Positions 2,045-30,692 of a stretch of 64,000 nt of DNA are shown piece by piece. The notes beneath the pieces were generated by a model. It had not been told where the DNA came from. It ran no database searches and saw only the letters and a program-made list of their open reading frames with translations. A program made the translations under genes and the position numbers. The stretch lies in NCBI RefSeq assembly GCF_001026695.1, contig NZ_LDNB01000009.1, forward strand, positions 62,001 to 126,000, written 5' to 3'. The first letter of the stretch is position 1. Each line of letters starts with the position of its first letter. The DNA is from Neobacillus vireti (GTDB lineage: Bacteria > Bacillota > Bacilli > Bacillales > Cytobacillaceae).

Positions 2045-2075
2045 ACAACATTGAATTTCTGAAGGAGTGTAGCTT

Positions 2076-4108: not shown

Positions 4109-4114
4109 GTTATA

Positions 4115-4152: not shown

Positions 4153-4185
4153 AAAAGCCATCATTTAGTGGGAGGAGAATTTTAG

Positions 4186-4923: not shown

Positions 4924-4935
4924 GGGGGATTGACA

Positions 4936-5919: not shown

Positions 5920-5938
5920 TTTTATTGGGGTGAGAACG

Positions 5939-6589: not shown

Positions 6590-6612
6590 ATGAAACATAA
6601 GGGTGTGAATAA

Positions 6613-8085: not shown

Positions 8086-8112
8086 ATATAACTGACAAGG
8101 AGATTATTGAAT

Positions 8113-10093: not shown

Positions 10094-12163
10094 ATGGTAA
10101 ACAATAATTGGAATCATGAAAAAGCTTCATCCCTTCCAAAAGGTGTTGAAGAATTAGTATATCGTTCGAATTTAATCGGGTCTGACCGTGCGGTTTGTAA
10201 TTGGGGCGGGGGCAATACGTCTATGAAGACGATGGAGAAAGATTTCCGCGGTCAGGACATTGAGGTGATGTGGGTGAAGGGAAGTGGTTCTGATTTAGCC
10301 ACAATGAAATCACATAACTTTACAGGGCTTAAATTAGAAGATATCCGCCCGCTAGTTGAAAGAAATGAAATGTCAGATGAAGAAATGGTGAGCTACCTTT
10401 CACATTGTATGATTGACAGCAAGCATCCACGAGCTTCCATTGAAACATTACTTCATGCTTTCTTACCTTATAAGCATGTGGATCACACACATCCTGATGC
10501 CATTATTAGCCTTTGCTGTGCAGACAATGGTAAGCAACTTGCTGAGGAAATTTTCGGTAATCGTTTTGTTTGGGTTCCATATATTCGCCCTGGCTTTACC
10601 CTATCAAAAATGATTGCAGAAGGGGTAAAGAACAACCCACATGCAGAACTAGTCTTAATGGAGAAACATGGGCTCGTAACATGGGGAGAAACGTCGGAAG
10701 AGTCCTATGCAAAGACGATTGAAGTTATTAATGAAGCGGAACAGTTTATTCATACAAGAATCAATGTTGAAACCCTATTTGGCGGGCAAAAATATGAATC
10801 TCTCACGAATGAAGAGGCTAATCGTATATTAGCAAAAGTGCTGCCGATTATCCGCGGGGCAGTCAGTGAAGAAAAGAAAATGCTCTTAACATATGACTGC
10901 GGTGGGGATGTTTTACAATTTGTGAATAGCCATAAGGCATCCGAGCTTTCACAAGTAGGTGCAGCATGCCCAGACCATCTTGTTCATACAAAACGTGTAC
11001 CGCTATATATAAATTGGGATCCACAAACAAAGGATGTAGAAGCATTAGTAGCAAGTGTAAAAGAAGGAATTTCCAGCTATAAAGCTGAATACAAGGAATA
11101 CTTTGAGCGCAACAAACATGAGGGTGACAAAATGTTTGAATCCGCACCTCGTGTGATCCTTATTCCGGGTATCGGGATGGTGAATACAGGTAAGGATGCC
11201 GCCAATTCAAGAGTAAGCGGTGCGTTATATCATCGGGCGATTGCAGTTATGAAGGGCGCTACTACTCTAGGAAACTTTGTTTCTTTAAGCGAAAACGAAT
11301 CTTACAATGTGGAATATTGGCCACTGGAATTATATAAATTAAGTCTAGCTCCGGCTGAAGCTGAATTTTCTCGAAAAGTTGCTTTTATCACGGGTGGTGC
11401 AGGCGGAATTGGCAGTGCAACAGCCCGTCGACTTGTATCTGAAGGAGCCCATGTTGTACTGGCCGACTTAAATCTTGAAGGGGCAGAAAAAGTAGCAGCT
11501 GAAATTAATGAAACATATGGTGCAGGTCGTGCGATTGCGGTAAAAATGGATGTAACGAAAGAGGAACAGGTTCAAGCTGCCTTTGATCATTCAGCCCTTA
11601 CATTCGGAGGCATAGACACAATTGTTAACAATGCAGGTCTTGCTACATCAAGTCCAATTGATGAAACCACCCTGCAAGAATGGAATTTAAATATGAACGT
11701 TTTAGGAACCGGTTACTTCTTGGTAGCGCGTGAAGCATTCAAGCAAATGAAACAGCAAGGAATGGGTGGTAATATGGTTTTTGTTGGTTCTAAAAACTCC
11801 GTTTACGCCGGCAAAAACGCTGCTGCTTATAGCTCTGTTAAGGCGCTTGAAACTCATCTTGCAAGATGTATCGCTTCGGAAGGCGGGGAATATGGAATTC
11901 GTGTGAATTCTGTTTTACCAGATGCTGTCCTGCAAGGCTCAGCGATTTGGGGTTCAAGCTGGCGCGAAGAACGTGCAGCGGCATATGGAATTCATCCAGA
12001 TCAATTAGAAGAGCATTACCGAAAACGGACAACATTGCTGGTCAATATTTACCCTGTGGATATTGCTGAAACGATTGCCTTCTTTGCTTCATCCAAATCA
12101 GCTAAAACAACTGGATGTATGGTAACGGTTGATGGTGGCGTTCCTGCTGCATTTACAAGATAA
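10094..12163 (+). CDS. rhaEW: Bifunctional rhamnulose-1-phosphate aldolase / lactaldehyde dehydrogenase
   Basis: This 689-residue fusion matches the Bacillus RhaEW layout. Residues 1 to about 420 form a class II aldolase domain with KHPRASIETLLHAF, zinc ligands in DHTHPD and EKHGLVTWG. Residues from about 430 form an SDR domain with TGGAGGIG, NNAG and the catalytic YSSVK. The first half should cleave L-rhamnulose 1-phosphate, and the second should oxidise the L-lactaldehyde product to lactate. Since L-fuculose 1-phosphate also yields L-lactaldehyde, the dehydrogenase may serve both pathways. A GGAGG site precedes the ATG, and operator-like boxes precede the promoter. Confidence 0.9.
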   Translation: MVNNNWNHEKASSLPKGVEELVYRSNLIGSDRAVCNWGGGNTSMKTMEKDFRGQDIEVMWVKGSGSDLATMKSHNFTGLKLEDIRPLVERNEMSDEEMVSYLSHCMIDSKHPRASIETLLHAFLPYKHVDHTHPDAIISLCCADNGKQLAEEIFGNRFVWVPYIRPGFTLSKMIAEGVKNNPHAELVLMEKHGLVTWGETSEESYAKTIEVINEAEQFIHTRINVETLFGGQKYESLTNEEANRILAKVLPIIRGAVSEEKKMLLTYDCGGDVLQFVNSHKASELSQVGAACPDHLVHTKRVPLYINWDPQTKDVEALVASVKEGISSYKAEYKEYFERNKHEGDKMFESAPRVILIPGIGMVNTGKDAANSRVSGALYHRAIAVMKGATTLGNFVSLSENESYNVEYWPLELYKLSLAPAEAEFSRKVAFITGGAGGIGSATARRLVSEGAHVVLADLNLEGAEKVAAEINETYGAGRAIAVKMDVTKEEQVQAAFDHSALTFGGIDTIVNNAGLATSSPIDETTLQEWNLNMNVLGTGYFLVAREAFKQMKQQGMGGNMVFVGSKNSVYAGKNAAAYSSVKALETHLARCIASEGGEYGIRVNSVLPDAVLQGSAIWGSSWREERAAAYGIHPDQLEEHYRKRTTLLVNIYPVDIAETIAFFASSKSAKTTGCMVTVDGGVPAAFTR

Positions 12164-12328: not shown

Positions 12329-13090
12329 GTGCTCGTAGCGGAAAGGCAAAGAAAAATAGTTGAATTAGTGAATGAACGGTTAAGCATTCGGGTCTCTGAG
12401 CTTAGCAGAATTTTCTCTGTTACTGAAGAGACAATCCGTCGTGACCTAGAAAAGCTGGAAAAAGAACATCTTTTGCAGCGAAGTCACGGTGGTGCCGTCA
12501 GTACGGAAAAAGAGGAACAAGAGACTTCCTATGTGGAGCGGGAAATTACAAATGCTGCTGAAAAAAACGCAATTGCAATTGAGGCTATAAATTTAATCAA
12601 TCAAGGTGACCAAATTATATTGGATGCAAGTACGACAGCGTGGTATGTCGCAAAAGAATTACCTGATATGCCTTTAACCGTTGTGACTAACTCGATAAAG
12701 GTAGCGATCGAACTAAGCAAAAAGGAACAAATAAAAGTTATTTCTACTGGTGGGATCTTATTATCCAATTCTCTCTCCTATGTAGGACCACTTGCAGAGC
12801 GATCTCTCAGTATGTATCACGTTAATAAAGCGTTTCTCTCTTGTAAAGGTATTCATCTTGAAAATGGTTTAAGTGATTTTAATGAGTCGCAGGCATTATT
12901 AAAGTCGAAAATGATGGATATAGCAGATGAAACGATCCTAATGGTTGATTCGAGTAAATTTGGAGTGCGCGCTTTTTCACAAATTTCGCCACTATCTACG
13001 ATTGACTTAATTATTACTGATTCACAAATTGGAGAGTCGACAACAAAACAACTGGACGAAAAAGGAATAATACTGAAAGTAGTTGATTGA
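12329..13090 (+). CDS. DeoR-family transcriptional regulator (rhamnose/fucose repressor)
   Basis: This 253-residue DeoR-family repressor has an N-terminal winged HTH (VSELSRIFSVTEETIRRDLEKLE, about residues 20-42) and a C-terminal sugar-phosphate sensor domain with NSIKVA, STGG and the Lys-rich effector site region. It starts with GTG, with a modest ribosome site. In B. subtilis the rhaEW neighbour is the DeoR repressor RhaR, and position and size match here. The AAATAAACA boxes before rhaEW, before this gene and before the fucose genes suggest it controls both pathways. The inducer is probably a phosphorylated deoxyketose (inference). Confidence 0.85.
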   Translation: MLVAERQRKIVELVNERLSIRVSELSRIFSVTEETIRRDLEKLEKEHLLQRSHGGAVSTEKEEQETSYVEREITNAAEKNAIAIEAINLINQGDQIILDASTTAWYVAKELPDMPLTVVTNSIKVAIELSKKEQIKVISTGGILLSNSLSYVGPLAERSLSMYHVNKAFLSCKGIHLENGLSDFNESQALLKSKMMDIADETILMVDSSKFGVRAFSQISPLSTIDLIITDSQIGESTTKQLDEKGIILKVVD

Positions 13091-14637: not shown

Positions 14638-15693
14638 GTGAGAATGAAATACTTACTTTTTCTATTCATACTGATCATTTTAGCTGGATGCGGAGTAATT
14701 GGGAATAAATCATCGAAGTATGAAATTGTTTATAACGGAGAAGTAAATGGAGCAAAGAAGCCAATGGACATTAAGGAACATAGAAAAGATGGACCTTACA
14801 CGATTGCATTAGTCCCTAAAATCGAGGGAATACCTTACTTTAACGCTGTAAGAGATGGTGCATTAGAAGCGGGAGAAGATCTTGGTATAAATGTCCTGTA
14901 TAAAGGACCTTCAACAGCCACCTGGGAACAGCAGGAGCAAATAATAGAGGAATTGATTGAGCAGAATGTAGATGTGATCGCGGTTGCAGCCAATGATCCG
15001 ATAAAATTAGGCACAGTATTGCAAAAAGCAAAAGAAATTGGAATAGAAGTGATCACGTGGGATTCAGATACGAATCCAGAATTCCGAAGCTTCTTTATTA
15101 ATATGGTGAATCCAGAAATATTAGGGAGACATATTTTGGATACGCTCGCATGGGAAGTCAAAGAACAGGGGAACTATGCGATTATGACCGGTTCGTCCAC
15201 TGCAGCCAATTTAAATGAGTGGATTAAGTGGATTAAAATCCATAATATGGAGTATTACCCCGATATGAAGCTGGTTGAAATCGTACCAACAAATGAAGAT
15301 CAAAACAATGCGTATTTGGCTGCGCGAAATCTATTAAAAAAGTACCCGGATTTAAAAGGTATTATTGGTGTCTCTACTCTTAACCCTCCTGCAGCTGCAT
15401 ATGCTGTAAAAGATGCAGGAAGGACCAGTGAAATAAAAGTGGTAGGGGTATCATCACCTCGTTTAATGAAATCTTACTTAAAGGAAGGAGCTGCCCAAAC
15501 GGCCACACTGTGGAGCCCGCAAAAATTGGGGTATTTAACGGTCAGCTTAGCGAAAAATTTACTGAATGGTGAAAAACCTAAAGACGGCCAAAAGATTCGG
15601 AATATTGGATCGATAGAGTTTGATGACGATATGGTTATCATGGGTCAGCCAATTGATTTTACAAAGGAAAATGTAGACCAATATGATTTTTAA
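14638..15693 (+). CDS. Sugar-sensing binding lipoprotein, partner of the LytS/YesN pair
   Basis: This 351-residue lipoprotein has lipobox LAGC (Cys18) and a RhaS-type binding domain opening IALVPKIEGIPYFNAV. It is clearly paralogous to the transport binding protein at 24589 (shared IPYFNA, QNVDVIAVA, LGFLTV/LGYLTV and a common PIDFTKEN/PTDFTKEN C-terminus). No permease is adjacent; instead its end overlaps the histidine kinase start by 11 bases. That matches three-component systems such as XylFII-LytS-YesN, in which a lipoprotein binds sugar outside and signals to the kinase. GTG 14638 follows GGGGGG by seven bases; an in-frame ATG at 14620 is less likely. Confidence 0.82.
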   Translation: MRMKYLLFLFILIILAGCGVIGNKSSKYEIVYNGEVNGAKKPMDIKEHRKDGPYTIALVPKIEGIPYFNAVRDGALEAGEDLGINVLYKGPSTATWEQQEQIIEELIEQNVDVIAVAANDPIKLGTVLQKAKEIGIEVITWDSDTNPEFRSFFINMVNPEILGRHILDTLAWEVKEQGNYAIMTGSSTAANLNEWIKWIKIHNMEYYPDMKLVEIVPTNEDQNNAYLAARNLLKKYPDLKGIIGVSTLNPPAAAYAVKDAGRTSEIKVVGVSSPRLMKSYLKEGAAQTATLWSPQKLGYLTVSLAKNLLNGEKPKDGQKIRNIGSIEFDDDMVIMGQPIDFTKENVDQYDF

Positions 15694-17473
15694 ACATAAC
15701 AAGCTGCCCTTTAATAATATTAGATTATCTACCAAACTGATTATCACGTATGTTTTATTAACCTGTATTCCGATGGCCCTATTAGGGTCTGTCATGTATA
15801 ACCAATATTCCAAATCCATCGAGGTTCAGGTTGGCGAATATATTCCACAATTATTAAGTCAGGCCAATGCAAACATAGAAAACGAGATTAAGAAACTTGA
15901 AAACATACCCGAATTAATCTATAGCTCTGGAGAAGTTATGGAAGTGCTGAGGTATAATTATGATCAAAATAAATCGACACTTCTTCAAGGACAGTATATT
16001 GTTCAAAGTTATTTGACAAACATTTACCTTAATTCAAATAATCCTGATGTTTTGGGCGCTTTTATACTCTCAAAGAACCGATTATTTGCCAGTACTAGAA
16101 CTCCTTTTGAAGGATTTGGCTTTAAAGACGGTTCTTTCCCATACAAAAAAGACATTGCTGAAGTTGGAAATATGGAGATCCTTCTTCCAGACCAAATCAA
16201 TTTAACGTTTAAAAACAAACCACCGTATATTTTACTTGTTAAACAACTGACAGACCTTGATAATCGAAAAAATTTAGGCACCTTATATGTAGCTGTTAAT
16301 GTTACTTTTTTTGAAAAATATTTGGAAGACCTACTTCGTAAAGAAAATACGACGATGTGGCTTATGGATAAACAAGGGAAGGTCATCTATCACACAAATG
16401 ATGAGGAAATAGGGAAAAAGGTGGAAGAAATAAATGAATATCCGTTATTGAATGGCAGCTTTAGTGCAACGATTAATGGTAAAAGTACGCTAATTAGTTT
16501 AAATGAAGCAAAGGAGCTTCCATGGATTCTAGGTCATAGTATTCCAATAAAAAATTTAACTGAACAGACGGATCATGTACGGAATGTTGCCATCTTTATC
16601 TTTATTGTTGTGATTTGTATTACAACAATCATTTCTATTTTTGTAGCCTGGACAGTAACAAGGCCGATTAAACAATTAAGTAGCCTCATGAAGGATGTCG
16701 AGATGGGAAATTTCGACGTAGAAGTACCAATTCATTCAAGTGATGAGGTAGGTATGCTTGCACTTAGCTTTCGTACGATGCTGATCAAAATAAGAGAGTT
16801 GATCCAAAAAAACTATCTTATTAAACTTCGCCAAAGGAATGCGGAATTATATGCACTCCAGTCACAAATTAATCCGCACTTTATGTACAATACATTGGAA
16901 ACAATTGGGATGGCTGTGGAGGAAGGGGAACAGGACCAGGCAGTTCGAATGATTACTGTTCTTGGGAGAATGATGAGGTTCTCGATTAGTAATAAAGACA
17001 GCCTCGTTTCGATTTCTAGTGAAGTGCAGCATATTCATGACTATTTGAATATCCAAAAGTTCAGGTTTGAAGACCGGTTATCTTTTAGGATTCATGAGGG
17101 TGTTGATAGCAGCAAGTACTATACCCCAAAATTTATCTTACAACCTATTATCGAAAATGCAATCAAATATGGATTAGAAAAAAGAAAAGAAATTATGATT
17201 GAGATCGAAGTGGTGGAAGAGGAGGGAGCTATTCTTTTTATTATTAGAGACAATGGACCAGGAATTGACGAACAAACGATGGTTACTTTAAGGAAGTCAT
17301 TGTCATCAGACCCAATGAATAGTAGGGATTCCGGCTTTGGTATGATTAATGTAGATGCCAGGATTGCTATGATATTTGGAGAAAATTATGGATTAGAACT
17401 TAAGAGCGAAGTAAATAAAGGAACGGAAGTTGTTCTACGAATTCCTAATACGTTGGAACCTAAAGAACGTTAA
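15683..17473 (+). CDS. Sensor histidine kinase, LytS/YesM family
   Basis: This 596-residue kinase has one membrane helix near residues 18-38, an extracytoplasmic sensor region of about 260 residues, a second helix at about 301-324, a HAMP domain, and a His_kinase domain with the phosphoacceptor His399 in NPHFMYNTLE. A C-terminal HATPase_c domain contains RDNGPGID. It overlaps the end of the lipoprotein gene, so the two are translationally linked and the lipoprotein probably docks on the sensor region. The partner regulator begins 21 bases downstream. Confidence 0.9.
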   Translation: MIFKHNKLPFNNIRLSTKLIITYVLLTCIPMALLGSVMYNQYSKSIEVQVGEYIPQLLSQANANIENEIKKLENIPELIYSSGEVMEVLRYNYDQNKSTLLQGQYIVQSYLTNIYLNSNNPDVLGAFILSKNRLFASTRTPFEGFGFKDGSFPYKKDIAEVGNMEILLPDQINLTFKNKPPYILLVKQLTDLDNRKNLGTLYVAVNVTFFEKYLEDLLRKENTTMWLMDKQGKVIYHTNDEEIGKKVEEINEYPLLNGSFSATINGKSTLISLNEAKELPWILGHSIPIKNLTEQTDHVRNVAIFIFIVVICITTIISIFVAWTVTRPIKQLSSLMKDVEMGNFDVEVPIHSSDEVGMLALSFRTMLIKIRELIQKNYLIKLRQRNAELYALQSQINPHFMYNTLETIGMAVEEGEQDQAVRMITVLGRMMRFSISNKDSLVSISSEVQHIHDYLNIQKFRFEDRLSFRIHEGVDSSKYYTPKFILQPIIENAIKYGLEKRKEIMIEIEVVEEEGAILFIIRDNGPGIDEQTMVTLRKSLSSDPMNSRDSGFGMINVDARIAMIFGENYGLELKSEVNKGTEVVLRIPNTLEPKER

Positions 17474-17494
17474 TATCGTAAGGGGGAGAAAACA

Positions 17495-19129
17495 GTGAGG
17501 CCGATAAGAACGGTAATCGTAGATGACGAGCCAAGAATTAGAAAGGGAATTGAAAGGTTAGTTCAGGCAAATGGGGAAGAGTGGGAAATTATCGGTGTAT
17601 TTTCGGATGGCCAGGAAGCATATGAAGCGATAATCAATCAATTTAAATCGATTGATCTGTTAATCACGGATGTTCAAATGCCGATTATGGATGGTTTAAC
17701 ATTGATCAAGAAATTAAACCATCAGTTACTTGATTTTTTTAGCATGATTATTAGCGGCTATGATGACTTCAAGTATTTACAAGATGCCATCCGTGAAGGG
17801 GCGATTGATTATATTTTAAAACCCATTGATCGGGAGAAATTTCAATTACAATTAAATGAAGCAAAAGAAAGAATTAGGAAGAAACAAACAGAAGAAGTTA
17901 GAAGGCGAGACATTGAAGATAGGGCACTGCAGCTCACGTATGCGAAACAAATTCACTTTTTAAGTGAGTTGACATGGAATGATGAGACAGATTTATCGTT
18001 ATTGGATTGGGCTTCCCAGTTTCCAAAAGGTCATTATAAACTCATGCATATCGATATTGACGAAATGTTAACAAAAATGAAAGGGGTTTCATCACTAGAG
18101 TTAAGGGACTGGCATTTAGCAGTTGAAAAGATGATGGGAGAGTTGCTGAATGAAGAATCCAGTCTTCAAGGAGTAAAGCATTGGATCTGGAAAAAAGGCA
18201 ATTTAAGTTTTTGGCTGTTAATGTTACAGGAACAAGCGGAGAAAGGCCCAGCGATTGAACAATACTTATTAAAGGTAAAAAAGAGGGTTCAGCATACCTT
18301 CCCATTTACAGTTTCCATCGCATATGGAAATGAATTTGAAGACCTTTCCCTCTTACCTGCGATGAGAGATAAACTACTTTCATTAATGCAATTTCGACTT
18401 ATTGAAGGTGGGAACAAAGTCTTTCATCTAAGTACCTTGGATGATCTTTCAAATGAAAAAACGTCAATGATGCCATCCTCTGTATACAAACTTACGGAGC
18501 AGATTGTCTATGCACTTCGTGAAAAAAATCAATTGGAAGTAACCAAGCTTTTATCACACTTTTTCCGTGAAATCGAGACATTCCGGTCACCTTTACTGAT
18601 ACAAGAGTCGATTCAATATTTATGTATTCGGATCGTGAAATGGTGGATGGAGAACGACGGATTCGGTGAAGAGATGAATTTGCTCATGAAAGCAATTCAA
18701 CTAACAAAAAAGGCAGCAAACTTCTATCAATTAAAAGATGGGATAAAAGATTGGGTCACAAGCCTCGTAACCAAGCAGAAGGAAATGGATTCTAGTCAAT
18801 CTGACCCAATTCAAAAAGCAAAGGAATGGATCCATGATAATCTTGGTAAGAGTATCACGATAAAGAAGTTGGCCAATCATGTGTATTTAAACCCTACTTA
18901 TTTTTGTGAGTACTTTAAAGCAGAGACGGGCGAAACCGTTTTAAATTATGTGACGATCACCCGATTGAAAAAAGCAAAGGAACTGCTAGAAAAAACCGAC
19001 TTGAAAATTTATGATGTGTCAGTAGGAGTTGGATATCAAGATACAAAATATTTCAGCCGACTATTTAAACAGTGGACAAATCAATCTCCATCACAATATC
19101 GGGAGAAGCACAATCAACTAAATGTATAG
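17495..19129 (+). CDS. Response regulator with AraC-type DNA-binding domain (YesN-like)
   Basis: This 544-residue protein has an N-terminal receiver domain (acidic pocket VDDE, phosphoacceptor Asp59 in LITDVQMP, conserved Lys in YILKPI), a long middle region, and a C-terminal AraC HTH domain (about residues 440-540, with YFSRLFKQWTNQSPSQYR). It starts with GTG after AAGGGGGAG. It most likely activates the operon beginning at 19317, in front of which lies a 20-bp-spaced direct repeat suited to an AraC-type domain. Confidence 0.9.
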   Translation: MRPIRTVIVDDEPRIRKGIERLVQANGEEWEIIGVFSDGQEAYEAIINQFKSIDLLITDVQMPIMDGLTLIKKLNHQLLDFFSMIISGYDDFKYLQDAIREGAIDYILKPIDREKFQLQLNEAKERIRKKQTEEVRRRDIEDRALQLTYAKQIHFLSELTWNDETDLSLLDWASQFPKGHYKLMHIDIDEMLTKMKGVSSLELRDWHLAVEKMMGELLNEESSLQGVKHWIWKKGNLSFWLLMLQEQAEKGPAIEQYLLKVKKRVQHTFPFTVSIAYGNEFEDLSLLPAMRDKLLSLMQFRLIEGGNKVFHLSTLDDLSNEKTSMMPSSVYKLTEQIVYALREKNQLEVTKLLSHFFREIETFRSPLLIQESIQYLCIRIVKWWMENDGFGEEMNLLMKAIQLTKKAANFYQLKDGIKDWVTSLVTKQKEMDSSQSDPIQKAKEWIHDNLGKSITIKKLANHVYLNPTYFCEYFKAETGETVLNYVTITRLKKAKELLEKTDLKIYDVSVGVGYQDTKYFSRLFKQWTNQSPSQYREKHNQLNV

Positions 19130-19144
19130 TGAATGATTCCAATG

Positions 19145-19173
19145 AGATTCCAGATGATGTGGAATCTTTTTTT
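19145..19173 (+). terminator. Intrinsic terminator of the sensor operon
   Basis: AGATTCCA and TGGAATCT form a hairpin with a seven-base loop, followed by a T-run. Confidence 0.8.
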
Positions 19174-19194
19174 GTCCGTTTAATTCTTAACATT

Positions 19195-19230
19195 CCGAAT
19201 ATTATCACCCCAATCTGAATATTACCTCCT
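19195..19230 (+). promoter_or_regulatory. Direct-repeat candidate site for the YesN-like regulator
   Basis: GAATATTATCACC (19197) and GAATATTACCTCC (19217) repeat with starts exactly 20 bases apart, about two helical turns. This is the arrangement used by AraC-type activators upstream of weak promoters, and it sits about 90 bases before the first gene of the sugar operon. Confidence 0.55.
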
Positions 19231-19273
19231 ATGAACATGAACCTATTCCATATATGATTATATTAACAATAGA

Positions 19274-19287
19274 TGAAAGCGCTAACA
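19274..19287 (+). promoter_or_regulatory. CcpA cre site
   Basis: TGAAAGCGCTAACA matches the Bacillus cre consensus TGWAANCGNTNNCA at every fixed position and lies 29 bases before the start codon of the first gene. This predicts carbon catabolite repression of the operon. Confidence 0.75.
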
Positions 19288-19316
19288 ATCAATGGCGATA
19301 GGAAGGTAGTGTAAAC

Positions 19317-20009
19317 ATGGCGTTGATAGGTCCTTCACTTATGTGTGCGGATATGGGAAATCTTCAAGAGGCGGTTATTGAACTTGATCGAGCAGGGGTG
19401 GACTTTTTCCACCTTGATGTGATGGACGGAAAGTTTGTACCCAATTTTACATTGGGTCCCGATCTTATTAAGCGATTACGAGGGTTTACACAGAAACCGT
19501 TCGATGTCCATCTCATGGTCGAAAAGCCGGAAGACTTCTTACATTTATTTATCGAGTCGGGAGCAGATATGATATCTGTTCATACAGAAGCCACGAATCA
19601 CTTGCAAAGAACATTGCAAACCATTAAAGACAAAGGTCTGAAAGCAGGAGTAGCGATCAACCCTGCAACCCCGCTTCAAAATATTGAGTATGTTCTGGAT
19701 GTTGTTGATTATATTACCGTCATGACGGTCAATCCAGGTTTCGCGGGGCAACGATTTGTCCCACTCATGAACAAAAAGCTACAACTATTAAACGAGATGA
19801 TTCACGAACAAGGATACACAATTGACATTCAAGTCGATGGAAATATTGGCTACTCAACGATACCGGATGTCTTAGAAAATGGTGCAAACATGCTGGTTTG
19901 TGGGACATCGAGTTTGTTTAAACCGGAACTGAAGCTAGATGAAGCGGTAGCAAAGCTGCGCAGGTTTATTCATGAACTAGAGTTTACCAACGTAAAGGGT
20001 GAGGGGTAA
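19317..20009 (+). CDS. Ribulose-phosphate 3-epimerase family protein (D-allulose-6-phosphate 3-epimerase-like)
   Basis: A 230-residue (beta/alpha)8 barrel of the ribulose-phosphate 3-epimerase family, with the metal-binding FHLDVMDGKFVPNFTLG, the catalytic DVHLMV, MTVNPGFAGQ and QVDGNI. A housekeeping rpe would normally sit near rsgA/prpC; this copy leads a sugar-transport operon and is followed two bases later by a PfkB kinase. It is therefore more likely an AlsE-type enzyme acting on a ketohexose 6-phosphate such as D-allulose 6-phosphate, though pentulose phosphates cannot be excluded. Confidence 0.8.
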   Translation: MALIGPSLMCADMGNLQEAVIELDRAGVDFFHLDVMDGKFVPNFTLGPDLIKRLRGFTQKPFDVHLMVEKPEDFLHLFIESGADMISVHTEATNHLQRTLQTIKDKGLKAGVAINPATPLQNIEYVLDVVDYITVMTVNPGFAGQRFVPLMNKKLQLLNEMIHEQGYTIDIQVDGNIGYSTIPDVLENGANMLVCGTSSLFKPELKLDEAVAKLRRFIHELEFTNVKGEG

Positions 20010-20011: not shown

Positions 20012-20962
20012 ATGGCTGAAATTACTGTTATCGGAAGCATTAACATCGATATCGTTGCTCTCACGGAGCGGTACCCCAGTCATAGTGAAACCCTTTTTGG
20101 AAATAGTGTCAAAATGCTATGCGGCGGAAAAGGGGCAAATCAAGCAGTTGCCTGTGCCCGACTCGGAAAATCAGTAGAGATAATTGGAGCCATTGGATTG
20201 GATCCATATGGAGAAGTAATTGAGGAAAATTTCATAAATAACCAAGTTGGTACCCATTTTTTAAAACGCGTTGAACAGGAGTCCACAGGGTGTGCAATTA
20301 TTACTGTGGATGCTTCGGCGGAAAATACAATGTTGGTCGTTAAAGGAGCAAATGACTCGTTAACGGAACAAGATATTCATCATGCTTTTTCGCAAATTGA
20401 AAGCAGTAAAGTTTTACTTGTTCAAATGGAAATTCCTGAAGAAACAGTGATTCGCGCGATGATTGAAGCGAAAAACAAAGGGATGTTTATTCTCTTAGAC
20501 CCGGCACCGGCTGAGGGGGTTACAAAGCAGGCATTAAGATATGCGGATCTCATCACACCGAATCTTCAAGAAACAAAACAGTTAACAGGGATTGAGGTAA
20601 CTTCCATTGAAACAGCAATTGAAGCAGCCATCTATTTCGATCAATCACTCGGCGTAAAAAATAGTGTGATAAAAATGGCGGAAAAAGGGGCCTTGATTTA
20701 CGAATGTGGTACGTCCAAATTTATCGAGGCAGTCAAAGTAAAAGCGGTAGATACGGTTGGGGCTGGTGATTCCTATGCGGGGGCATTGGCGTGTGCACTT
20801 GCAGATGAAGTAGATCTTGAACAAGCTGCCAGGTTTGCAGCGATTGTGGCGGCAATGAAGGTATCCAAACTGGGAGCACAAACAGGTTTGCCAACCATCG
20901 CTGAAGTAAATGAGTATTGCAAGGAGAATAATCTTAACTACTATGGTCTCCGAACATGTTAA
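20012..20962 (+). CDS. PfkB-family sugar kinase, ribokinase-like
   Basis: This 316-residue ribokinase-fold kinase has the N-terminal GSINIDIV, the substrate motif GGKGANQAVACARLG, LLDPAPA, TPNLQET and the catalytic DTVGAGDSYAGALACAL. It follows the 3-epimerase almost without a gap. Its substrate could be D-ribose, but beside an AlsE-like epimerase a ketohexose such as D-allulose is equally attractive. Confidence 0.85.
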   Translation: MAEITVIGSINIDIVALTERYPSHSETLFGNSVKMLCGGKGANQAVACARLGKSVEIIGAIGLDPYGEVIEENFINNQVGTHFLKRVEQESTGCAIITVDASAENTMLVVKGANDSLTEQDIHHAFSQIESSKVLLVQMEIPEETVIRAMIEAKNKGMFILLDPAPAEGVTKQALRYADLITPNLQETKQLTGIEVTSIETAIEAAIYFDQSLGVKNSVIKMAEKGALIYECGTSKFIEAVKVKAVDTVGAGDSYAGALACALADEVDLEQAARFAAIVAAMKVSKLGAQTGLPTIAEVNEYCKENNLNYYGLRTC

Positions 20963-21004
20963 TCAACATAAGACTTGAAGGAGATAGAATGGAGGGGAAC
21001 GAAG

Positions 21005-22555
21005 GTGTCCGACTATTTACTACAAATGACCCAAATTAGTAAAACATTTCCCGGTGTGAAAGCATTAGATGATGTTCGTTTTGAAGTCAAAAAAGGAGAA
21101 GTCCATGCTCTAATCGGTGAAAATGGCGCAGGGAAATCGACATTAATCAAAATATTGGCGGGAATGTACGAACCTGACCAAGGGGCTACCTTTCTCTTTG
21201 AAGGAAAAGATGCGCAAATTAACAAGCCAATCGATGCGACATTAAAAGGAATTTCGATTATTTATCAAGACTTAAGCTTATTCTCTAATTTATCCGTTGC
21301 TGAAAATATTTATATCGGGCGAGATAGCGGCAAAAAGCCATGGAAAAAAGTGAATTGGAATGAAATGGAGAATGTTGCTAAAAAGGCTTTGCAAGAACTT
21401 GAATTCGAGATTGATGTTCAAACACCGGTTGAAAAGCTTAGTATTGCACAGCAGCAGCTCATTGAAATTGCTCGTGCACTCGCCTTTGATTCAAAATTAA
21501 TTGTGATGGATGAACCAACATCATCACTCTCGGCCGGAGAAGTTGAAAAACTATATAGAGTCATCAATAAGTTAAAGCAACGAGGAATTTCGATTATATT
21601 CGTCAGCCATAAACTAAAGGAGTTATTTGCAGTTTCCGACCGCTTTACCGTTTTACGCGATGGGAAATATGTTGGTACGTATGATGCAAAAGAGCTTGAT
21701 GAAGATCAATTAATCACCTTAATGGTCGGTCGGAAAGTGCTTTACGAAAAAAATACGGAAAAAGGTTTGGCCGGACAGACGTTACTGGAACTGAAAGGGT
21801 TGACCAAGGCTGGTAACTTCAAAGACATTTCGTTTGAATTAAAAGCCGGAGAGATCGTAGGAATTACTGGACTAGTAGGCTCGGGACGCACAGAGTTGGC
21901 ACAAGCGATTTTTGGTGTCAATAAACCTGATAGCGGAGAAATGACGTTAAATGGCGAAAGCATTCAGATTAAGTCATCTGAGCATGCAGTTAAAAAAGGG
22001 ATTGCTTACATCCCTGAAAGTAGAAAAACACAAGGCTTGATTTTAAGGCAGTCGCTTACTAATAATATTTCTCTTCCCATATTGAAGGAATTACGGAATG
22101 GATTCGGGCTAATCAAGCGTAAAAAAGAAGTGGATTTAGCCAAGCATTATATCGATACACTCGATGTCAGACCCGCTCATCCGCATCGCGCGGCAGGCGA
22201 TCTTTCCGGGGGCAATCAACAAAAAGTGGTTATTGGAAAATGGCTGTCGACGAAGCCGCAAATTTTGATCATTGATGAACCGACAAATGGGATTGATATT
22301 GGGGCAAAAACGGAAATCCATAAATTGCTTCGAAAGCTAGCTGCAGAGGGACTGGGGATTATCGTCATTTCATCGGAATTGCCTGAGGTGCTTGCTGTCA
22401 GTGATCGTATTTTAGTTATGCGCCATGGGAAGATTGCCGGTGAATTGGATATTGCAGAAGCAACGCAAGAAAATATTATGAATTACGCATTGCTTGGCTC
22501 CAAAGCCTCCACTTTAAAAAAGAATGTGCAGGCGAGTAAGGAGGTTTCCGTATGA
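21005..22555 (+). CDS. Sugar ABC transporter ATP-binding protein (RhaT-type, two ATPase domains)
   Basis: This 516-residue double ATPase has Walker [10 protein letters not shown] (about 38-46), [13 protein letters not shown], the second-half P-loop GLVGSGRTE and the signature [11 protein letters not shown] 21005 is preferred because GGAGGGG lies nine bases upstream; an in-frame TTG at 20975 is possible. Its stop overlaps the start of the first permease by four bases. Two different permeases plus a RhaS-type binding protein make this the RhaSTPQ architecture known for L-rhamnose uptake, which is also shared by AI-2 importers. Confidence 0.9.
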
Positions 22556-23535
22556 AATCAATATTAAAGTCAAAAGAAATGAGTATTGCCGCGATTGTGA
22601 TAGCACTCTGTATTACCTTAACATTTGTCAGCCCTGTTTTTCTTACGGCGGATAACTTGCTCGATGTGTTGAAAGCAAATTCAGTCATTGGAATATTAGC
22701 AGTTGGAATGACGTTAGTGATTATTACGGGCGGGATTGACGTGTCGGTTGCAGCTGTCACAAGCGCTGTCTGTGTGATTATCGGTAAACTGATGCAGGTC
22801 ATGCCGGACCACTTTTCATCTTTGCTTTTATTATTCTTAATTGCTCCTTTATTAGGGATCCTTCTTGGGGCCATTAATGGCGTGCTTGTGGCAAAGATTC
22901 GAATTCCGGCCATCGTTGTCACACTAGGGATGATGAGCATTATCAATGGGTTAGTACTCTATATTACGAATGGTGTCTATTTAAATAGCACGAATTTCCC
23001 GAAAGTATTTATTCAGTTTGCTAATATTAAAGTTTTTGGGGTATCAGTTATTATTCTCATCTTCATGGCTGTGGCTTTGTTCACATGGTACATCTTAAAA
23101 TACACCTTAATCGGTCGAGAAGTATTAGCAATTGGCGGAAATAAAGAATCTGCCTTACGAGTAGGAATTAACTTTGATAAAGTGCAAGTTTTTGTGTTTT
23201 CCTATATGGGACTTTTAGCAGGAATTGCGGCAATTGCCCAAACGGCATATACAAAATCAGTCGATCCGAATGGAATGCTCGGCCTCGAGCTTTTAGTTAT
23301 TGCTGGTGTTGTCCTTGGCGGCGCGAATATTATGGGTGGTCGTGGAACAATCATGGGAACAGTTCTAGGGGTGTTATTGTTAGGGATTGTTCAAAATGGT
23401 CTCATTTTAGCGAAAATCGATACATTTTGGCAAAAAGTATTCACAGGTTGCATTATTTTATTAGCAGTATCGTATGACCATATTCAATACAAACGCTCAC
23501 AAGAGAAATTGGCCAAGATTGAAGTAGAAGCGTAA
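22552..23535 (+). CDS. Sugar ABC transporter permease 1 (RhaP/RhaQ-type)
   Basis: A 327-residue hydrophobic permease of the BPD_transp_2 family, with GIDVSVAAV near residue 62 and GVVLGGANIMGGRGT in the C-terminal part. It overlaps the ATPase gene by ATGA and is followed by a second, non-identical permease. Together they probably form a heterodimeric channel. Confidence 0.9.
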   Translation: MKSILKSKEMSIAAIVIALCITLTFVSPVFLTADNLLDVLKANSVIGILAVGMTLVIITGGIDVSVAAVTSAVCVIIGKLMQVMPDHFSSLLLLFLIAPLLGILLGAINGVLVAKIRIPAIVVTLGMMSIINGLVLYITNGVYLNSTNFPKVFIQFANIKVFGVSVIILIFMAVALFTWYILKYTLIGREVLAIGGNKESALRVGINFDKVQVFVFSYMGLLAGIAAIAQTAYTKSVDPNGMLGLELLVIAGVVLGGANIMGGRGTIMGTVLGVLLLGIVQNGLILAKIDTFWQKVFTGCIILLAVSYDHIQYKRSQEKLAKIEVEA

Positions 23536-23551: not shown

Positions 23552-24514
23552 ATGAAGGCGGTCTCATTTTCCAAAGAAAGTATTCTAGGGTTGATTGCGC
23601 TAATTGTATTTATTCTCATGAGTCTTTTTATCCCCGGTTTTTTTGAACAGAATAATTTAAACAATATGATGTTCCAGCTGCCGGAGTTTGGTTTGCTTGC
23701 CCTTGCGATGATGATTGTGATTGTCACTGGCGGGATTGATCTGTCAATCACATACATTGCGGCCATGTCCGGTGTAGCTATTGCATTAATGCAAAGTCAC
23801 GGGTATCCGATGCTTACAGCCATTATTGTTGGGATAATCGTTGGGCTGGCATGCGGATTAATCAATGGAACGATCATTTCAAAGATTGGTGTTTCACCGA
23901 TCCTTGTCACTTTAGGAACAATGGTCTTGTTTGAGGGGGTTATCCTTAGTATTACAAAAGGAAGTTCAATTTCCGGGTTTTCTGAATCGTATAGTTTGAT
24001 AGGAAATGGTTATTATATGGGCATTGTCCCCCTTTCTATCATTATCTTTATTTTCTTTGCGATCCTGACAGGAGTGCTTTTAGCAAAAACAAAATGGGGT
24101 CGAAGCGTATATATGATTGGCAGTAACCCGGTGGCAACCCTTTTTTCTGGAGTAAATAACAGTAGAGTATTAATGAGGGTTTACCTATATGCGGCTATGC
24201 TTGCAGCCATTGCTTCCATCATCATGACTTCTCGTTATAATTCCGCGAAAGTCGATTTAGGATCCTCCTATCTATTACAAAGTGTTTCCGCAGCTGTATT
24301 AGGCGGAACTGAGATTCAAGGTGGTTATGGGAAAGTCATTGGCACAATCTATGCGGTCATTATTTTTCAAATGCTTTCGAGCGGATTGAACTTAATGGGT
24401 GTTTCGCGTCCAATCGTCAATGTGATGATGGGGGTTATTCTCATCACTGTTTTAGTACTGAATTTTGTCAAAGGCAAAATTGAAGAGAAGAACCAAAAAA
24501 CAGCAGCAGCTTAA
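23552..24514 (+). CDS. Sugar ABC transporter permease 2 (RhaP/RhaQ-type)
   Basis: The second permease of the system, 320 residues, with TGGIDLSITYIAAM and SAAVLGGTEIQGGYG motifs and about eight to ten membrane segments. It begins 16 bases after permease 1 with an AAAGAGGTG ribosome site. Two unequal permeases in one operon is what separates rhamnose-type systems from the single-permease ribose type at 2076. Confidence 0.9.
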   Translation: MKAVSFSKESILGLIALIVFILMSLFIPGFFEQNNLNNMMFQLPEFGLLALAMMIVIVTGGIDLSITYIAAMSGVAIALMQSHGYPMLTAIIVGIIVGLACGLINGTIISKIGVSPILVTLGTMVLFEGVILSITKGSSISGFSESYSLIGNGYYMGIVPLSIIIFIFFAILTGVLLAKTKWGRSVYMIGSNPVATLFSGVNNSRVLMRVYLYAAMLAAIASIIMTSRYNSAKVDLGSSYLLQSVSAAVLGGTEIQGGYGKVIGTIYAVIIFQMLSSGLNLMGVSRPIVNVMMGVILITVLVLNFVKGKIEEKNQKTAAA

Positions 24515-24588: not shown

Positions 24589-25623
24589 ATGAAGAAATTT
24601 CTTGGTTTACTTGCATCAGTAGTACTCGTAATCAGTATGTTAGCTGGATGCGTATCACAGGAGAGCGCAACTGGGGGCAGTAAAGGGAAAAAAGAGGGAA
24701 GCGGAAATGACAAAATTAAAATTGCCGTTGTTCCGAAATTAATTGGTATCCCTTACTTTAACGCTTCTGAAAAGGGAGTAATTGAAGCTGGAAAAGAGTT
24801 AGGTGTCGATGTTATTTATACGGGTCCAACAGAAGCGGATGCGGCACAACAAGTAAAAGTAATTGAAGACCTCATTAGTCAGAATGTGGATGTCATTGCT
24901 GTAGCGCCAAATGATGCAGCATCATTAACACCTGTGCTTAAAAAAGCAAAAGATAAAGGAATTATCGTTATGGACTGGGACACGCCAGCAGATCAATCAC
25001 TAGTAGAACTATCTGTTCACCAAATTGATGATGAGGCGTATGGCCGCCATATTGCAAAAAGCTTAATTGAAAAAATGGGGGCTGAAGAAGGGGAAATTGC
25101 CATTTTAACAGGCGGACTTTCTGCTGCGAACTTAAATACATGGATTGATGCGGCTAAGAAAGAGCTTGCTGAAAAATACCCTGGAATCAAATTAGTAACA
25201 GATAAAATTGCAACCGATGAGAAACAACAAGTAGCATACCAAAAAACATTGGATCTAGTAAAATCTTATCCAAATCTAAAGGGAATTATGGCTTTTTCAA
25301 CTCCAGCACCACTAGGAGCAGCCCAAGCGATTCAAGAAAAGGGCTTGCAGGATAAAATTGCTGTTGTAGGAACTGCCCTGCCAACAGACTCAGCTCCATA
25401 TTTAGAAGATGGTTCTTTAGACGTAGCCATTTTGTGGGAACCAGATAAACTAGGATTTTTGACCGTCGCACTTGCAAAAGCTTTGGCTGAAGGCAAAAAA
25501 CCAGAGAATGGACAAGACATTGCGAAGGTTGGAAAAATTGAGCTATGGGAAGACGGAAAAACCGTTATCATGGGTCCTCCAACTGACTTCACAAAAGAAA
25601 ATGCGAAAGACTTCAATTTCTAA
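24589..25623 (+). CDS. rhaS: Sugar-binding lipoprotein of the RhaS type
   Basis: This 344-residue lipoprotein has lipobox LAGC (Cys21), a charged linker, and a type I binding domain opening IAVVPKLIGIPYFNAS. It is a close paralogue of the sensor lipoprotein at 14638, including the FTKEN ending. It delivers sugar to the transporter encoded immediately upstream. L-rhamnose is the best guess from family and from rhaB/rhaA downstream. AAGGGGGAAAAG precedes the ATG. Confidence 0.85.
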   Translation: MKKFLGLLASVVLVISMLAGCVSQESATGGSKGKKEGSGNDKIKIAVVPKLIGIPYFNASEKGVIEAGKELGVDVIYTGPTEADAAQQVKVIEDLISQNVDVIAVAPNDAASLTPVLKKAKDKGIIVMDWDTPADQSLVELSVHQIDDEAYGRHIAKSLIEKMGAEEGEIAILTGGLSAANLNTWIDAAKKELAEKYPGIKLVTDKIATDEKQQVAYQKTLDLVKSYPNLKGIMAFSTPAPLGAAQAIQEKGLQDKIAVVGTALPTDSAPYLEDGSLDVAILWEPDKLGFLTVALAKALAEGKKPENGQDIAKVGKIELWEDGKTVIMGPPTDFTKENAKDFNF

Positions 25624-25716: not shown

Positions 25717-26679
25717 ATGACTACCATGTACGAACAGAATTATATAATTAAGAATCATAAAATTAAAGAAGCTTTTTACCAATTAAAAAGGGAGCAGCCG
25801 GAACGATTTAAAAGAAAATTGAATTTATCATGGAGTAACTGGGGATTCGGACTGGAACCATTGGAGAACTCGGTTAAACGATTAAAAGAGAATGGAATCA
25901 ACTTTATTGAGCTTCACGGGAATCATTATGGACCTGACCTTGGATATCGAGTAGAGGAAACGTTAGAAATCCTTAAGAAATACGAAATGAAAGTATCTGG
26001 CGTTTGTGGAATGTTTTCAGCTGAGAATGATCTTTCTAGCAATATTCCAAGTAAAAGACAGGCTGCGATTGATTATATTAAGAGAGAGCTTGAATTTACT
26101 AGTAAAGTAGGCGGCCAATATTTATTAGTCGTCCCAGGTGCTGTTGGCAGACCACATGCATATGACGATACGGAATTTGAAAGAAGTGTTGAAACGCTCA
26201 AAATTGTTGCTGATCACTTTGAAAACTATAACGTTCACGGGGCGATTGAGCCAATTCGTTCGGCGGAAGTAAGTTTCATTCATACAATAGCTGATGCGAA
26301 AAAATATATTGAAGCAGTCGGGCATCCTGGAATTCAACATATTAACGGGGATGTTTATCATATGCAATCAGAAGAACTGCATATAGGTGAAGCGATCATT
26401 CATGCCGGGAATCAGCTTGTTAATCTTCATATGGCTGATAGTAACCGGAGAGCACTTGGTCATGGTGTGATGGATTTAGATACGATTATTATGGCACTGT
26501 ATTTAATTGGATACAATCAGGATGGTCGATTTGTAACCCCTGAGCCGCTAGGGCCAGGTGGAGATCCGTATCCAGCAATGAACTCACTGCCTGATACAAA
26601 GGAACTTGATGAACTTGTTTCACAGACAGCTTCGTATTTCAGAGAGCGGGAAACTCGTCTGTTAGAAAGAGACGAGTAA
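25717..26679 (+). CDS. Sugar epimerase/isomerase-like TIM-barrel protein (D-tagatose 3-epimerase superfamily)
   Basis: A 320-residue AP-endonuclease-2-fold (xylose-isomerase-like) protein. Visible metal-site features of the ketose 3-epimerase group are Glu in GAIEPI, the HINGDVYHM stretch, His in VNLHMADSN and the C-terminal PEPLGPGGDPYPA. The likely reaction is C3-epimerisation of a free ketose, for example L-xylulose to L-ribulose, which would feed the araB-encoded kinase directly downstream. This substrate is inferred from context. A second in-frame ATG at 25726 has better ribosome-site spacing. Confidence 0.75.
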   Translation: MTTMYEQNYIIKNHKIKEAFYQLKREQPERFKRKLNLSWSNWGFGLEPLENSVKRLKENGINFIELHGNHYGPDLGYRVEETLEILKKYEMKVSGVCGMFSAENDLSSNIPSKRQAAIDYIKRELEFTSKVGGQYLLVVPGAVGRPHAYDDTEFERSVETLKIVADHFENYNVHGAIEPIRSAEVSFIHTIADAKKYIEAVGHPGIQHINGDVYHMQSEELHIGEAIIHAGNQLVNLHMADSNRRALGHGVMDLDTIIMALYLIGYNQDGRFVTPEPLGPGGDPYPAMNSLPDTKELDELVSQTASYFRERETRLLERDE

Positions 26680-26706
26680 AAATATGGTTAATAGAAGGTG
26701 AGAAAA

Positions 26707-28392
26707 TTGACGAAATATACGATTGGTCTTGATTATGGAAGTCAATCCGGCCGTGCTGTGCTTGTTGAGGTTCATTCCGGGAAAGAAGTGGCAACGGCGG
26801 TAAAAGCATATACTCACGGGGTCATGGACGAGTTTTTGCCTGATGGAAAAACAAAACTAGAACACGACTGGGCTTTACAACACCCGAACGACTATTTGGA
26901 AGTTTTGCAGATTACGATTCCACAAGTTTTAGAGGAATCCGGTGTGTCGGCGGATGATGTGATCGGTGTAGGCATTGACTTTACTGCTTGTACAGTTCTT
27001 CCAATCAAAGAGGATGGAACTCCGCTTTGTTTGATGGATGAATTTGTCCATCATCCGCATAGTTATGTAAAGCTCTGGAAACATCATGCAGCACAGGATG
27101 AGGCAAACAGACTGAATGAAATTGCTGAGGAACGCGGAGAAGAATTTCTTAAGCGTTACGGGGGGAAGATTTCCTCTGAATGGATGATTCCGAAAGTGTG
27201 GCAAATTTTAAATGAAGCACCTGAGATTTATCAGGCTGCAGATCAAATCATTGAAGCGGCCGACTGGGTGACCTCCCAACTCACAGGCAAGATTGTTAGA
27301 AATAGCTGTACAGCGGGATATAAGGCAATTTGGCATAAAAAAGAAGGATATCCTTCGAAGGAATTTTTCAAAGCACTTGACCCAAGGCTGGAAAATGTCG
27401 TAGAAGAGAAATTATCAAAAGAAATTATTTCGATTGGTTCTAACGCAGGGGAAATCTCTGAAAATGGCGCCAAGCTGACGGGGTTGAAGCCAGGCACAGC
27501 TGTTGCAGTAGGAAATGTCGATGCGCACGTATCGATTCCGGCAGTTGGTATTACAGAACCTGGTAAATTACTGATGATCATGGGAACCTCCACCTGTCAC
27601 ATTTTACTCGGGGAAGAAGAAAAGATTGTTCCGGGTATGTGCGGAGTTGTAGAAGATGGCGTGATTCCGGGCTATATGGGTTACGAGGCAGGACAATCGT
27701 GTGTAGGTGACCATTTTGAGTGGTTTACGGAAAACTGTGTATCGGCAAGCTACTATGAAGAAGCAAGGGAAAAAGGTATGAACATTCACGCCCTTCTTAC
27801 GGAAAAAGCATCCAAGCTACAGGTGGGTGAGAGTGGTCTCTTAGCACTTGATTGGTGGAATGGAAACCGATCGACACTAGTGGATGCTGACTTAACGGGG
27901 CTTCTGCTTGGTGCAACGCTGTCAACGAAACCGGAAGAAATTTATCGGGCCTTGATTGAAGCAACGGCATATGGAACGAGGACAATTGTCGAAGCGTTCC
28001 GGGAAAATGGTGTTCCCGTCAATGAGGTGTATGCTTGTGGCGGTATTGCAGAGAAAAATGCGCTCATGATGCAAATTTATGCGGATGTATTGAATATGGA
28101 AATCAAAATTTCCGCCTCATCCCAAACACCAGCCCTTGGATCTGCCATGTTTGGTGCAGTCGCAGCGGGAAAAGAACGTGGCGGCTATGACAGCATTACA
28201 GAGGCTGCTAAAGTTATGAGCTGGCTGAAAGATGAGACGTATGTACCGACTTTAAAAAATGCAAAAATATATGAACAACTATATACAGAATACGAAAAGC
28301 TGTATAACTATTTTGGTCGTGGCCAGAACAATGTCATGAAAACACTGAAGCATATTAAGAAAAACTCTCAGAACAGGGAGGAAGACCTATGA
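26707..28392 (+). CDS. araB: Ribulokinase
   Basis: This 561-residue FGGY kinase matches B. subtilis AraB closely: [14 protein letters not shown] at the start, [61 protein letters not shown] and [11 protein letters not shown]. It phosphorylates L-ribulose (and other 2-ketopentoses) with ATP. TTG 26707 is eight bases from AGAAGG; GTG 26698 is the alternative. It overlaps araD by four bases. There is no araA in the window, so L-ribulose must come from another reaction. Confidence 0.9.
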
Positions 28393-30667: not shown

Positions 30668-30692
30668 ATACGAAACGAAAGGGAGATTTTTT

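Follow-up and report, generated by a model that had tools for sequence, protein, structure and literature searches.

Few three-component sugar sensors are known, in which a separate sugar-binding protein serves for sensing together with a histidine kinase and a response regulator. Geobacillus stearothermophilus has AraPST, which we take to respond to arabinose, and GanP/GanS, presumably such a system for galactose/glucose. In the Geobacillus system, one binding protein is reported to function in sensing and another in uptake (PMC10384115), and araPST is named in PMC4194401. A Geobacillus arabinose cluster is listed with a binding-protein gene first, then those for a histidine kinase, an AraC regulator and an ATP-binding cassette (ABC) transporter (PMC4428132). 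The CuaDSR system of Ruminiclostridium cellulolyticum, which responds to cellobiose, is described as a lipoprotein binder, a HAMP kinase with two transmembrane segments and a 538-aa receiver-AraC regulator, with a second binding protein for transport and a transport operon under its control (PMC10384115). XylFII-LytS-YesN of Clostridium beijerinckii responds to D-xylose through three parts. Here, we analyze a cassette in Neobacillus vireti that consists of the genes for a sensor lipoprotein (SENS, 14638..15693), a sensor histidine kinase (HK, 15683..17473) and a response regulator (RR, 17495..19129). The window, i.e. the whole stretch of DNA that was analyzed, comprises 64,000 nt of assembly GCF_001026695.1 (contig NZ_LDNB01000009.1, positions 62,001-126,000 of the forward strand). 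Coordinates in the N. vireti locus are those of the window, and features lie on the plus strand unless a minus sign is given.

By its gene content and operator, the cassette belongs to this general kind of system and works like AraPST, CuaDSR and XylFII-LytS-YesN. A dedicated gene for an exported binding protein stands beside kinase and regulator genes; transport relies on a separate binding protein (TRANS, 24589..25623) or, in relatives, on a major facilitator superfamily (MFS) permease or another ABC transporter; and the transport operon has a predicted regulator site in its promoter. The separate sensing protein, kinase and regulator are shared with AraPST and GanP/GanS, but SENS is of the RhaS/LsrB branch, and the target genes and the probable sugar differ. 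CuaD (410 aa when mature) binds a disaccharide and probably belongs to another binding-protein family, and CuaS is described without a predicted domain in its extracellular part (PMC10384115), whereas a dCache domain is present in HK. XylFII and SENS have the same fold, and the three parts have the same roles, but SENS scored only 48.9 bits on the XylF model TIGR02634 (cut-off 389.55), and thus is not a XylF-type xylose-binding protein, and HK carries its dCache domain. The cassette lies outside the XylFII family proper.

Regulators of L-rhamnose utilization in the Bacillales, RhaR and RhgR, were described by Rodionova et al. (2013), together with RhaEW (PMC3870299). The systems of that study are like the present locus in the catabolic genes RhaEW and RhaA and, for certain Bacillales, in the MFS transporter RhaY, and their AraC-type sites are also direct repeats, with a periodicity of 21 bp as compared with 20 bp in the cassette operator. 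The words "two-component", "three-component", "histidine kinase" and "sensor" are absent from the main text of PMC3870299, and no sensor acting outside the cell is described in it. In work on rhamnose in C. beijerinckii, a microcompartment gene cluster is reported to include a LytS kinase and also a response regulator, which are not described there as neighbours of a binding protein (PMC6384099). Searches of one collection of open-access papers for rhamnose with YesM/YesN, two-component or sensor returned no recognised description of the SENS-HK-RR cassette.

Results

SENS is a lipid-anchored relative of RhaS and LsrB with the type-I periplasmic-binding-protein fold. Its gene starts with GTG at 14638, with GGGGGG just 5' of the start, and encodes the lipobox LAGC; in the tree set described below, a simple pattern recognized a canonical lipobox in 40 of 45 sensors and none in the other five. 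The protein matched Pfam PF13407 (Peripla_BP_4) with 201.6 bits. Its score on the RhaS model TIGR02637 (254.7 bits) was under the cut-off of 342.25, which makes it a relative outside the equivalog, and its score on the NCBIfam LsrB model (193.4 bits) was below the cut-off of 384. A single-chain structure model with a predicted local distance difference test score (pLDDT) of 89.4 gave LsrB as the top fold matches (query-normalised template modelling score, TM, 0.81), and structures of XylFII (5xss, 5xsj), AraP and GanP were also among the matches. In a sequence search of the PDB, the best LsrB-type chain scored ~160 bits, AraP 60.3 bits and GanP 64.5 bits. Unlike RhaS, which stands beside its own ABC permease genes, SENS has no adjoining permease gene in the window. 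Its closest other match in the whole 5.3-Mb genome was TRANS, with 44% identity and the same Pfam family, and five more places matched weakly. TRANS is the transport version of the lipoprotein that a preliminary description of this DNA had placed at 24589.

The HK open reading frame (ORF) overlaps that of SENS by 11 bp. HK has an extracellular dCache_1 domain (61.5 bits; cut-off 45) followed by HAMP, His_kinase and HATPase_c domains, whereas RR joins a receiver to an AraC-type helix-turn-helix (PF00072, PF12833, PF00165) and is of the YesN type. Among PDB sequences, the GanS kinase domain matched HK best (99.4 bits). The HK structure model, also of a single chain, was applied to domain-level matches only; the kinase part matched GanS (6swj/6swk) and the extracellular part matched dCache-type domains, including the sensor-kinase extracellular domain 8w7p. 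No LytS chain was among the 50 fold matches listed, which is no proof of a different fold. The preliminary description had reported a RhaS-type lipoprotein without permeases, whose gene overlaps that of a LytS-type kinase and precedes a YesN-type regulator. This arrangement was confirmed, but the kinase label needs correction: HK has the dCache domain and is YesM-like, which speaks against a LytS-type kinase in the strict sense. The broader proposal of a three-component sugar sensor that resembles XylFII-LytS-YesN, with a rhamnose-type binder, is supported.

Relatives' loci were gathered through similarity to SENS alone, and not through the kinase, the regulator or the operator. A contig search yielded 13 loci, and matches were found in 29 of 193 genomes of the family (E <= 1e-60), 16 of 397 genomes of the order (E <= 1e-90) and 7 of 398 genomes of the class (E <= 1e-90). 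These samples overlap, and each counts the N. vireti genome itself; two of the 29 family genomes (G106 and G095) match SENS only via a transport-type protein. Gene neighbourhoods were drawn for 53 loci. After exclusion of L009, L015, L056, L057, L061 and L096 (same locus or near-identical strain) and of L069 (no sensor), 46 sensor genes were left. The HK gene came next after the SENS gene in all 46 loci and was followed by the RR gene in 45. The two ORFs also overlap in the 46 loci, where overlap lengths are based on the earliest possible start codons.

A direct repeat at 19193..19229, ahead of the target operon, is very probably the operator of RR, as predicted from sequence. It consists of two direct copies, TTCCGAATATTATCACC and ATCTGAATATTACCTCC, which start 20 bp apart and are identical at 13 of 17 positions; as detected, the repeat was 19 nt long and 79% identical, with a spacing of 20, at 19191-19209 and 19211-19229. 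A terminator-like hairpin with a T-run (19144..19168; one found vs 0.0 in shuffles) follows the sensor genes and, in a correction to an earlier account, stands between the RR gene and the target operon. The spaced operator pattern had one exact match in the genome, at 19195-19229, and with two mismatches allowed it had three other genomic sites vs seven for the reversed-pattern control.

To search relatives, a pair of 17-base motifs was built from eight loci of the rpe and hxl types defined below, the window included. Among 33 held-out non-duplicate loci, the stretch after RR beat 100 of 100 shuffles in 27, and in L110 and L111 it beat 99 of 100. Six sensor loci were outside this test, L067 because the stretch was too short and L101-L104 and L106 because the script missed the regulator; in L101-L103 the operator is ahead of the transporter. 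In L017, L068 and L098, whose transport operon is at a distance from the cassette, the operator precedes the transport operon and is not adjacent to RR. All three loci of another order that were fetched later carry the operator in the interval from RR to the ATPase gene; its scores were 14.8, 28.2 and 26.2, and nothing else in these loci exceeded 14. A motif model from 19 loci with RhaS-type ABC or MFS partners gave 19193 as the sole match above 15 on both strands of the 64-kb window, although the sites of this model had been located by the first model, which included the window. In seven further genomes scanned with at most one mismatch, a site was present at the cassette in all five that bear the sensor, with one extra stray site in G139. 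No operator site was found genome-wide in G106 and G095, which have window-type transport genes (loci L069 and L122) without a sensor match; rpe and rbsK of L069 have the opposite orientation. The reversed-pattern control gave two matches in the same seven genomes. Only the two sensor-less genomes represent an independent test, because all five sensor genomes had contributed to the motif.

Promoter geometry was also conserved. The -10-like hexamer TATGAT (19253..19258) lies 23 bp after operator copy 2, and the best -10-like hexamer was found at this distance in 28 of 37 loci, with 3 to 6 of 6 matches to TATAAT. When the tails were shuffled in 1000 rounds, at most nine loci agreed on any single offset. 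At the 23-bp offset, all 37 loci have A as the second and T as the sixth base of the hexamer. A simple promoter scan of 19100-19330 revealed no sigma-70 site. The sequence TGAAAGCGCTAACA (19274..19287) exactly matches TGWAARCGYTWNCW, which we take to be the consensus of cre, where CcpA would presumably exert catabolite repression. Cre-like sites with at most one mismatch numbered six across the window vs 2.4 expected by chance (standard deviation 1.9), and 10 of 100 shuffles reached six, which is not clearly above chance.

Our assignment of the repeat to RR is based on its single exact genomic match, its recurrence before transport operons in the majority of related loci and the -10-like box 23 bp on. 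RR appears to have a single target in the N. vireti genome. The preliminary description had named the repeat as a likely regulator site, and genome-wide uniqueness, held-out loci, sensor-less genomes and the -10 offset bear out this prediction computationally.

The first gene of the target operon is rpe (19317..20009; ribulose-phosphate 3-epimerase family, TIGR01163, 251.1 bits vs a cut-off of 212.6), followed by rbsK for a ribokinase-like kinase (20012..20962; TIGR02152, 315.4 vs 299.65), a CUT2-type ABC transporter ATPase gene (20975..22555; best models CUT2 sugar ATPases, under equivalog cut-offs), two CUT2-type permease genes and the gene for the lipoprotein TRANS. For the permease at 22552..23535 the best models were CUT2 sugar permeases, under cut-offs, and that at 23552..24514 was named from reading and from homology to other permeases, without a family call. 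Next come dte (25717..26679), encoding a xylose-isomerase-like TIM barrel of the sugar 3-epimerase type (PF01261; D-psicose 3-epimerase model under cut-off), genes for an AraB-like kinase (26698..28392) and an AraD-like epimerase (28389..29084), both named from reading without a family call, and genes for the rhamnulokinase RhaB (29228..30667; TIGR02627, 605.3 bits vs 527.95) and the L-rhamnose isomerase RhaA (30615..31949; TIGR01748, 769.7 vs 584.95).

The same cassette stands beside at least four kinds of uptake genes in different loci, namely RhaS-clade ABC genes, an MFS permease gene, ABC genes with rpe-rbsK and ABC genes with hxlA-hxlB. The 39 classed sensors of the tree comprised 18 with a RhaS-type ABC transporter, 13 with an MFS permease, 5 with an rpe-type and 3 with an hxl-type ABC transporter. 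This count leaves out eight: L012 and L020, which are near-duplicates off the tree, and L017, L067, L068, L102, L104 and L105, for which no partner was assigned; in L017, L102 and L105 the binding protein that goes with the ABC genes resembles the one at 3122 by only 24-27%. Genes for a rhaD-like aldolase and a fucO-like alcohol dehydrogenase were present in 10 of the 13 MFS-type loci, and hxl-type operons consist of hxlA, hxlB and an allulose-6-phosphate epimerase gene with ABC genes. The family identity of aldolase and MFS permease was checked in L055, and that of the hxl-type families in L050. A guess from ORF lengths that some loci encode CUT1 ABC transporters was wrong, as Pfam and NCBIfam identified MFS permeases, rhamnulose-1-phosphate aldolase and Fe-alcohol dehydrogenase. 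SENS (rpe type) and the L050 sensor (hxl type, same genus) are 77% identical, yet they stand beside different transporters. The sensor tree requires at least five partner changes.

According to the preliminary description, the sensor seemed to be a copy that the cell had made of its transport receptor, and a tree of both lipoproteins was suggested as a check. In a first tree of 80 rows, 28 of 29 kinase-adjacent lipoproteins formed one branch (support 99/93), with TRANS elsewhere among transport proteins. A larger tree of 98 rows placed 44 of 45 sensors together with weaker support (87/38), and L068 stood apart on a long branch. SENS and TRANS thus fell in separate branches, and the nearest relative of known gene context was the L050 sensor for SENS and the transport protein of L092 (87%) for TRANS. 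When SENS and TRANS were forced together, the likelihood was 448 log units worse and the arrangement was rejected by the approximately unbiased (AU) test (p-AU 2.2e-7), which refutes a recent private duplication. A single origin of all 58 sensor-type rows, L068 included, was not rejected (p-AU 0.335). Judged from these trees, SENS is a member of an older sensor group, whose members belong to other species, and is no copy of the local transport receptor. An old duplication linking the sensor and window-type transport clades is possible because the two branches are neighbours, with weak support (89/58 in the 80-row tree and 80/52 in the 98-row tree).

Rhamnose genes surround the cassette. In the window, rhaDE (RhaEW type, 10094..12163), encoding a bifunctional rhamnulose-1-phosphate aldolase/short-chain dehydrogenase (TIGR02632, 1023.3 bits vs 567.75), lies on one side and rhaB and rhaA lie on the other, all above curated cut-offs. 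The gene order in L106 and L107 is rhaDE-rhaB-rhaA-deoR-SENS-HK-RR-RhaS-type ABC, that in L052-L055 and others is rhaD-fucO-SENS-HK-RR-MFS, and in other loci rhaDE adjoins the cassette or the transporter. A DeoR-family regulator encoded at 12329..13090, named without a family call, is perhaps the intracellular rhamnose regulator RhaR; genes 60-79% identical to it stand beside rhaA or rhaB homologues in L059, L064, L106 and L107. The likely ligand of SENS is L-rhamnose or a close analogue, because rhamnose genes surround the cassette and because an alpha-L-rhamnosidase gene in L058 is likewise preceded by the operator. The L058 operator is at 14654 and the rhamnosidase gene at 14817-17834 of that locus, and the regulon there seems to reach this rhamnose-releasing enzyme. 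All 29 aligned sensors, among them those from plain rhamnose operons, share residues D142, D144 and R150, and the same positions are D, P and V in all eight aligned window-type transport proteins, TRANS included; these counts do not imply that loop positions 144 and 150 contact the ligand.

Proteins of ~500 aa are encoded upstream of the cassette in L064 (14467-15963, minus strand), L012 (7870-9372) and L014 (7928-9424). Those of L064 and L012 weakly match arabinose/fucose isomerase domains, and in L064 an operator lies ahead of the gene, whose product is a divergent arabinose/fucose-isomerase-like protein. These proteins are possibly an unnamed sugar isomerase of the sensor regulon. Just upstream of SENS in the window, 13214-14512 encodes a 432-aa protein with two tandem class II aldolase stretches, which has an 84% identical counterpart at the same place in L092. 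A second sugar cluster occupies 494-9903; its genes, named from reading, encode an ABC ATPase, a permease, a binding protein, a short-chain dehydrogenase, a Gfo/Idh-like oxidoreductase, a class II aldolase, a RhaB-like kinase and an L-fucose-isomerase-like protein. Elsewhere in the window, a purine riboswitch (58207-58306, 78.3 bits) and group II intron domains D1-D4 (54179-54343, 58.4 bits) were matched.

Discussion

The genes, their domains and conserved order, the operator, the promoter geometry and the evolution of the lipoproteins were computed here. From them we infer a ligand, docking, phosphotransfer, DNA binding, activation as the direction of control and the extent of the operon, and we consider it quite probable that the cassette is an extracellular three-component sugar sensor that switches on the rpe-rbsK-ABC operon. 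Lipid-anchored SENS would close on a sugar outside the membrane, most likely L-rhamnose or a close analogue, and would then dock on the dCache domain of HK. The kinase would autophosphorylate and hand the phosphate to the AraC-type RR, which would bind as a dimer to the direct repeats 20 bp apart, at about -72 to -36 from the start implied by the -10 box. There, RR would recruit RNA polymerase to the promoter, for which the scan detected no full sigma-70 site, and the rpe-rbsK-ABC transporter operon would be turned on, perhaps through dte-araB-araD-rhaB-rhaA.

Several observations weigh against parts of this proposal. L104 has neither a recognised regulator nor an operator, and the full-length model of HK is poor (predicted TM score, pTM, 0.43). 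Four of the 33 held-out loci (L012, at a contig end, L017, L068 and L098) lack a site right after RR, and in a whole-locus test on both strands only 24 of 35 held-out loci had their top match at a distance of 0-900 bp behind RR and on its strand. The 11 failing loci include L010 and L064, where the RR-adjacent site ranks second, L017, L068 and L098, where the site is elsewhere, and L012 and L067, which are cut short. In the remaining four (L106, L107, L110 and L111) the operator was weak or absent; two of these, L106 and L107, have the clearest rhamnose operon. Finally, D144 and R150, present in every one of the 29 aligned sensors, are missing from TRANS, and the target operon has rpe-, rbsK-, araB- and araD-like genes that are unneeded for L-rhamnose breakdown.

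Because of these additional genes and the residues missing from TRANS, the sensed and the transported sugars may differ, and rpe, rbsK, araB and araD allow for a different or a further inducer. The sensor might thus detect a pentose, a pentulose or allulose that fits rpe-rbsK-dte-araB-araD, and the SENS subclade is indeed tied to rpe/rbsK operons with two transporters (L051, L092-L094; L050, L063, L065). As the invariant sensor residues extend to plain rhamnose operons and rhamnose genes flank the cassette on both sides in the window, we regard this as possible but somewhat doubtful. Alternatively, the cassette might detect L-rhamnose as a pectin marker and induce an uptake operon for a different sugar, an idea that draws on the conserved sensor loop, on P and V at positions 144 and 150 of TRANS, and on the closely similar L050 sensor, which drives an hxlAB-alsE-type transporter. 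Such cross-sensing seems unlikely to us; were it true, sensor and transport receptor would be uncoupled, with one sugar announcing another. The database name of SENS would make it a quorum sensor for autoinducer 2 (AI-2), and its best PDB sequence and fold matches are LsrB-type proteins, but the surrounding genes are for sugar catabolism. Using what we take to be the six AI-2 contact positions of LsrB, SENS keeps two (K and D), whereas N191, L192, V245 and T247 replace D166, Q167, P220 and A222. Because these four positions differ, AI-2 sensing was rejected and we give it hardly any credence. Dozens of the 120 homologues listed carry the name "autoinducer 2 ABC transporter substrate-binding protein", which suggests that this label is often wrong and that the misnaming is likely widespread.

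Other alternatives concern the role and the source of SENS rather than its sugar. It could both signal and deliver sugar to ABC permeases, as ChvE is reported to do in Agrobacterium (PMC13068155), given that SENS is a complete CUT2-type binding protein and the next operon encodes a CUT2-type permease pair. That operon has its own binding protein, TRANS, and in MFS-type loci the operator-driven permease needs none, so we find a dual role decidedly improbable. Since dCache domains often bind small ligands, HK might instead sense the sugar directly, with SENS only sharpening the response. The CuaDSR kinase and regulator are reported still to perceive cellobiose without the lipoprotein, but the extracellular part of CuaS showed no affinity for the three sugars tested (PMC10384115), and a need for SENS is suggested by the strict pairing of its gene with that of HK in all 46 loci. 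Direct sensing by the kinase is improbable in our judgment. A recent local duplication of the receptor gene at 24589 might be read from the identity and shared Pfam family of the two lipoproteins, from their place beside one operon and from the weakly supported neighbourhood of their clades. However, SENS falls among sensors of other genera and TRANS among transport proteins, a clade of the two was rejected by the AU test, and the sensors of most relatives stand beside an MFS permease or a transporter with a binding protein of another clade, which leaves this origin with almost no likelihood.

The preferred reading, an extracellular sensor with its own lipoprotein, enlarges the small set of known three-component sugar sensors by a probable L-rhamnose sensor that acts outside the cell. 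Across the 46 relatives' loci, the sensing lipoprotein and the transport receptor evolve separately: one sensor group and one type of predicted operator precede four kinds of uptake genes, and the sensor tree includes at least five partner changes. The cassette family is thus a natural test of how the specificities of sensor and transporter are kept together or drift apart.

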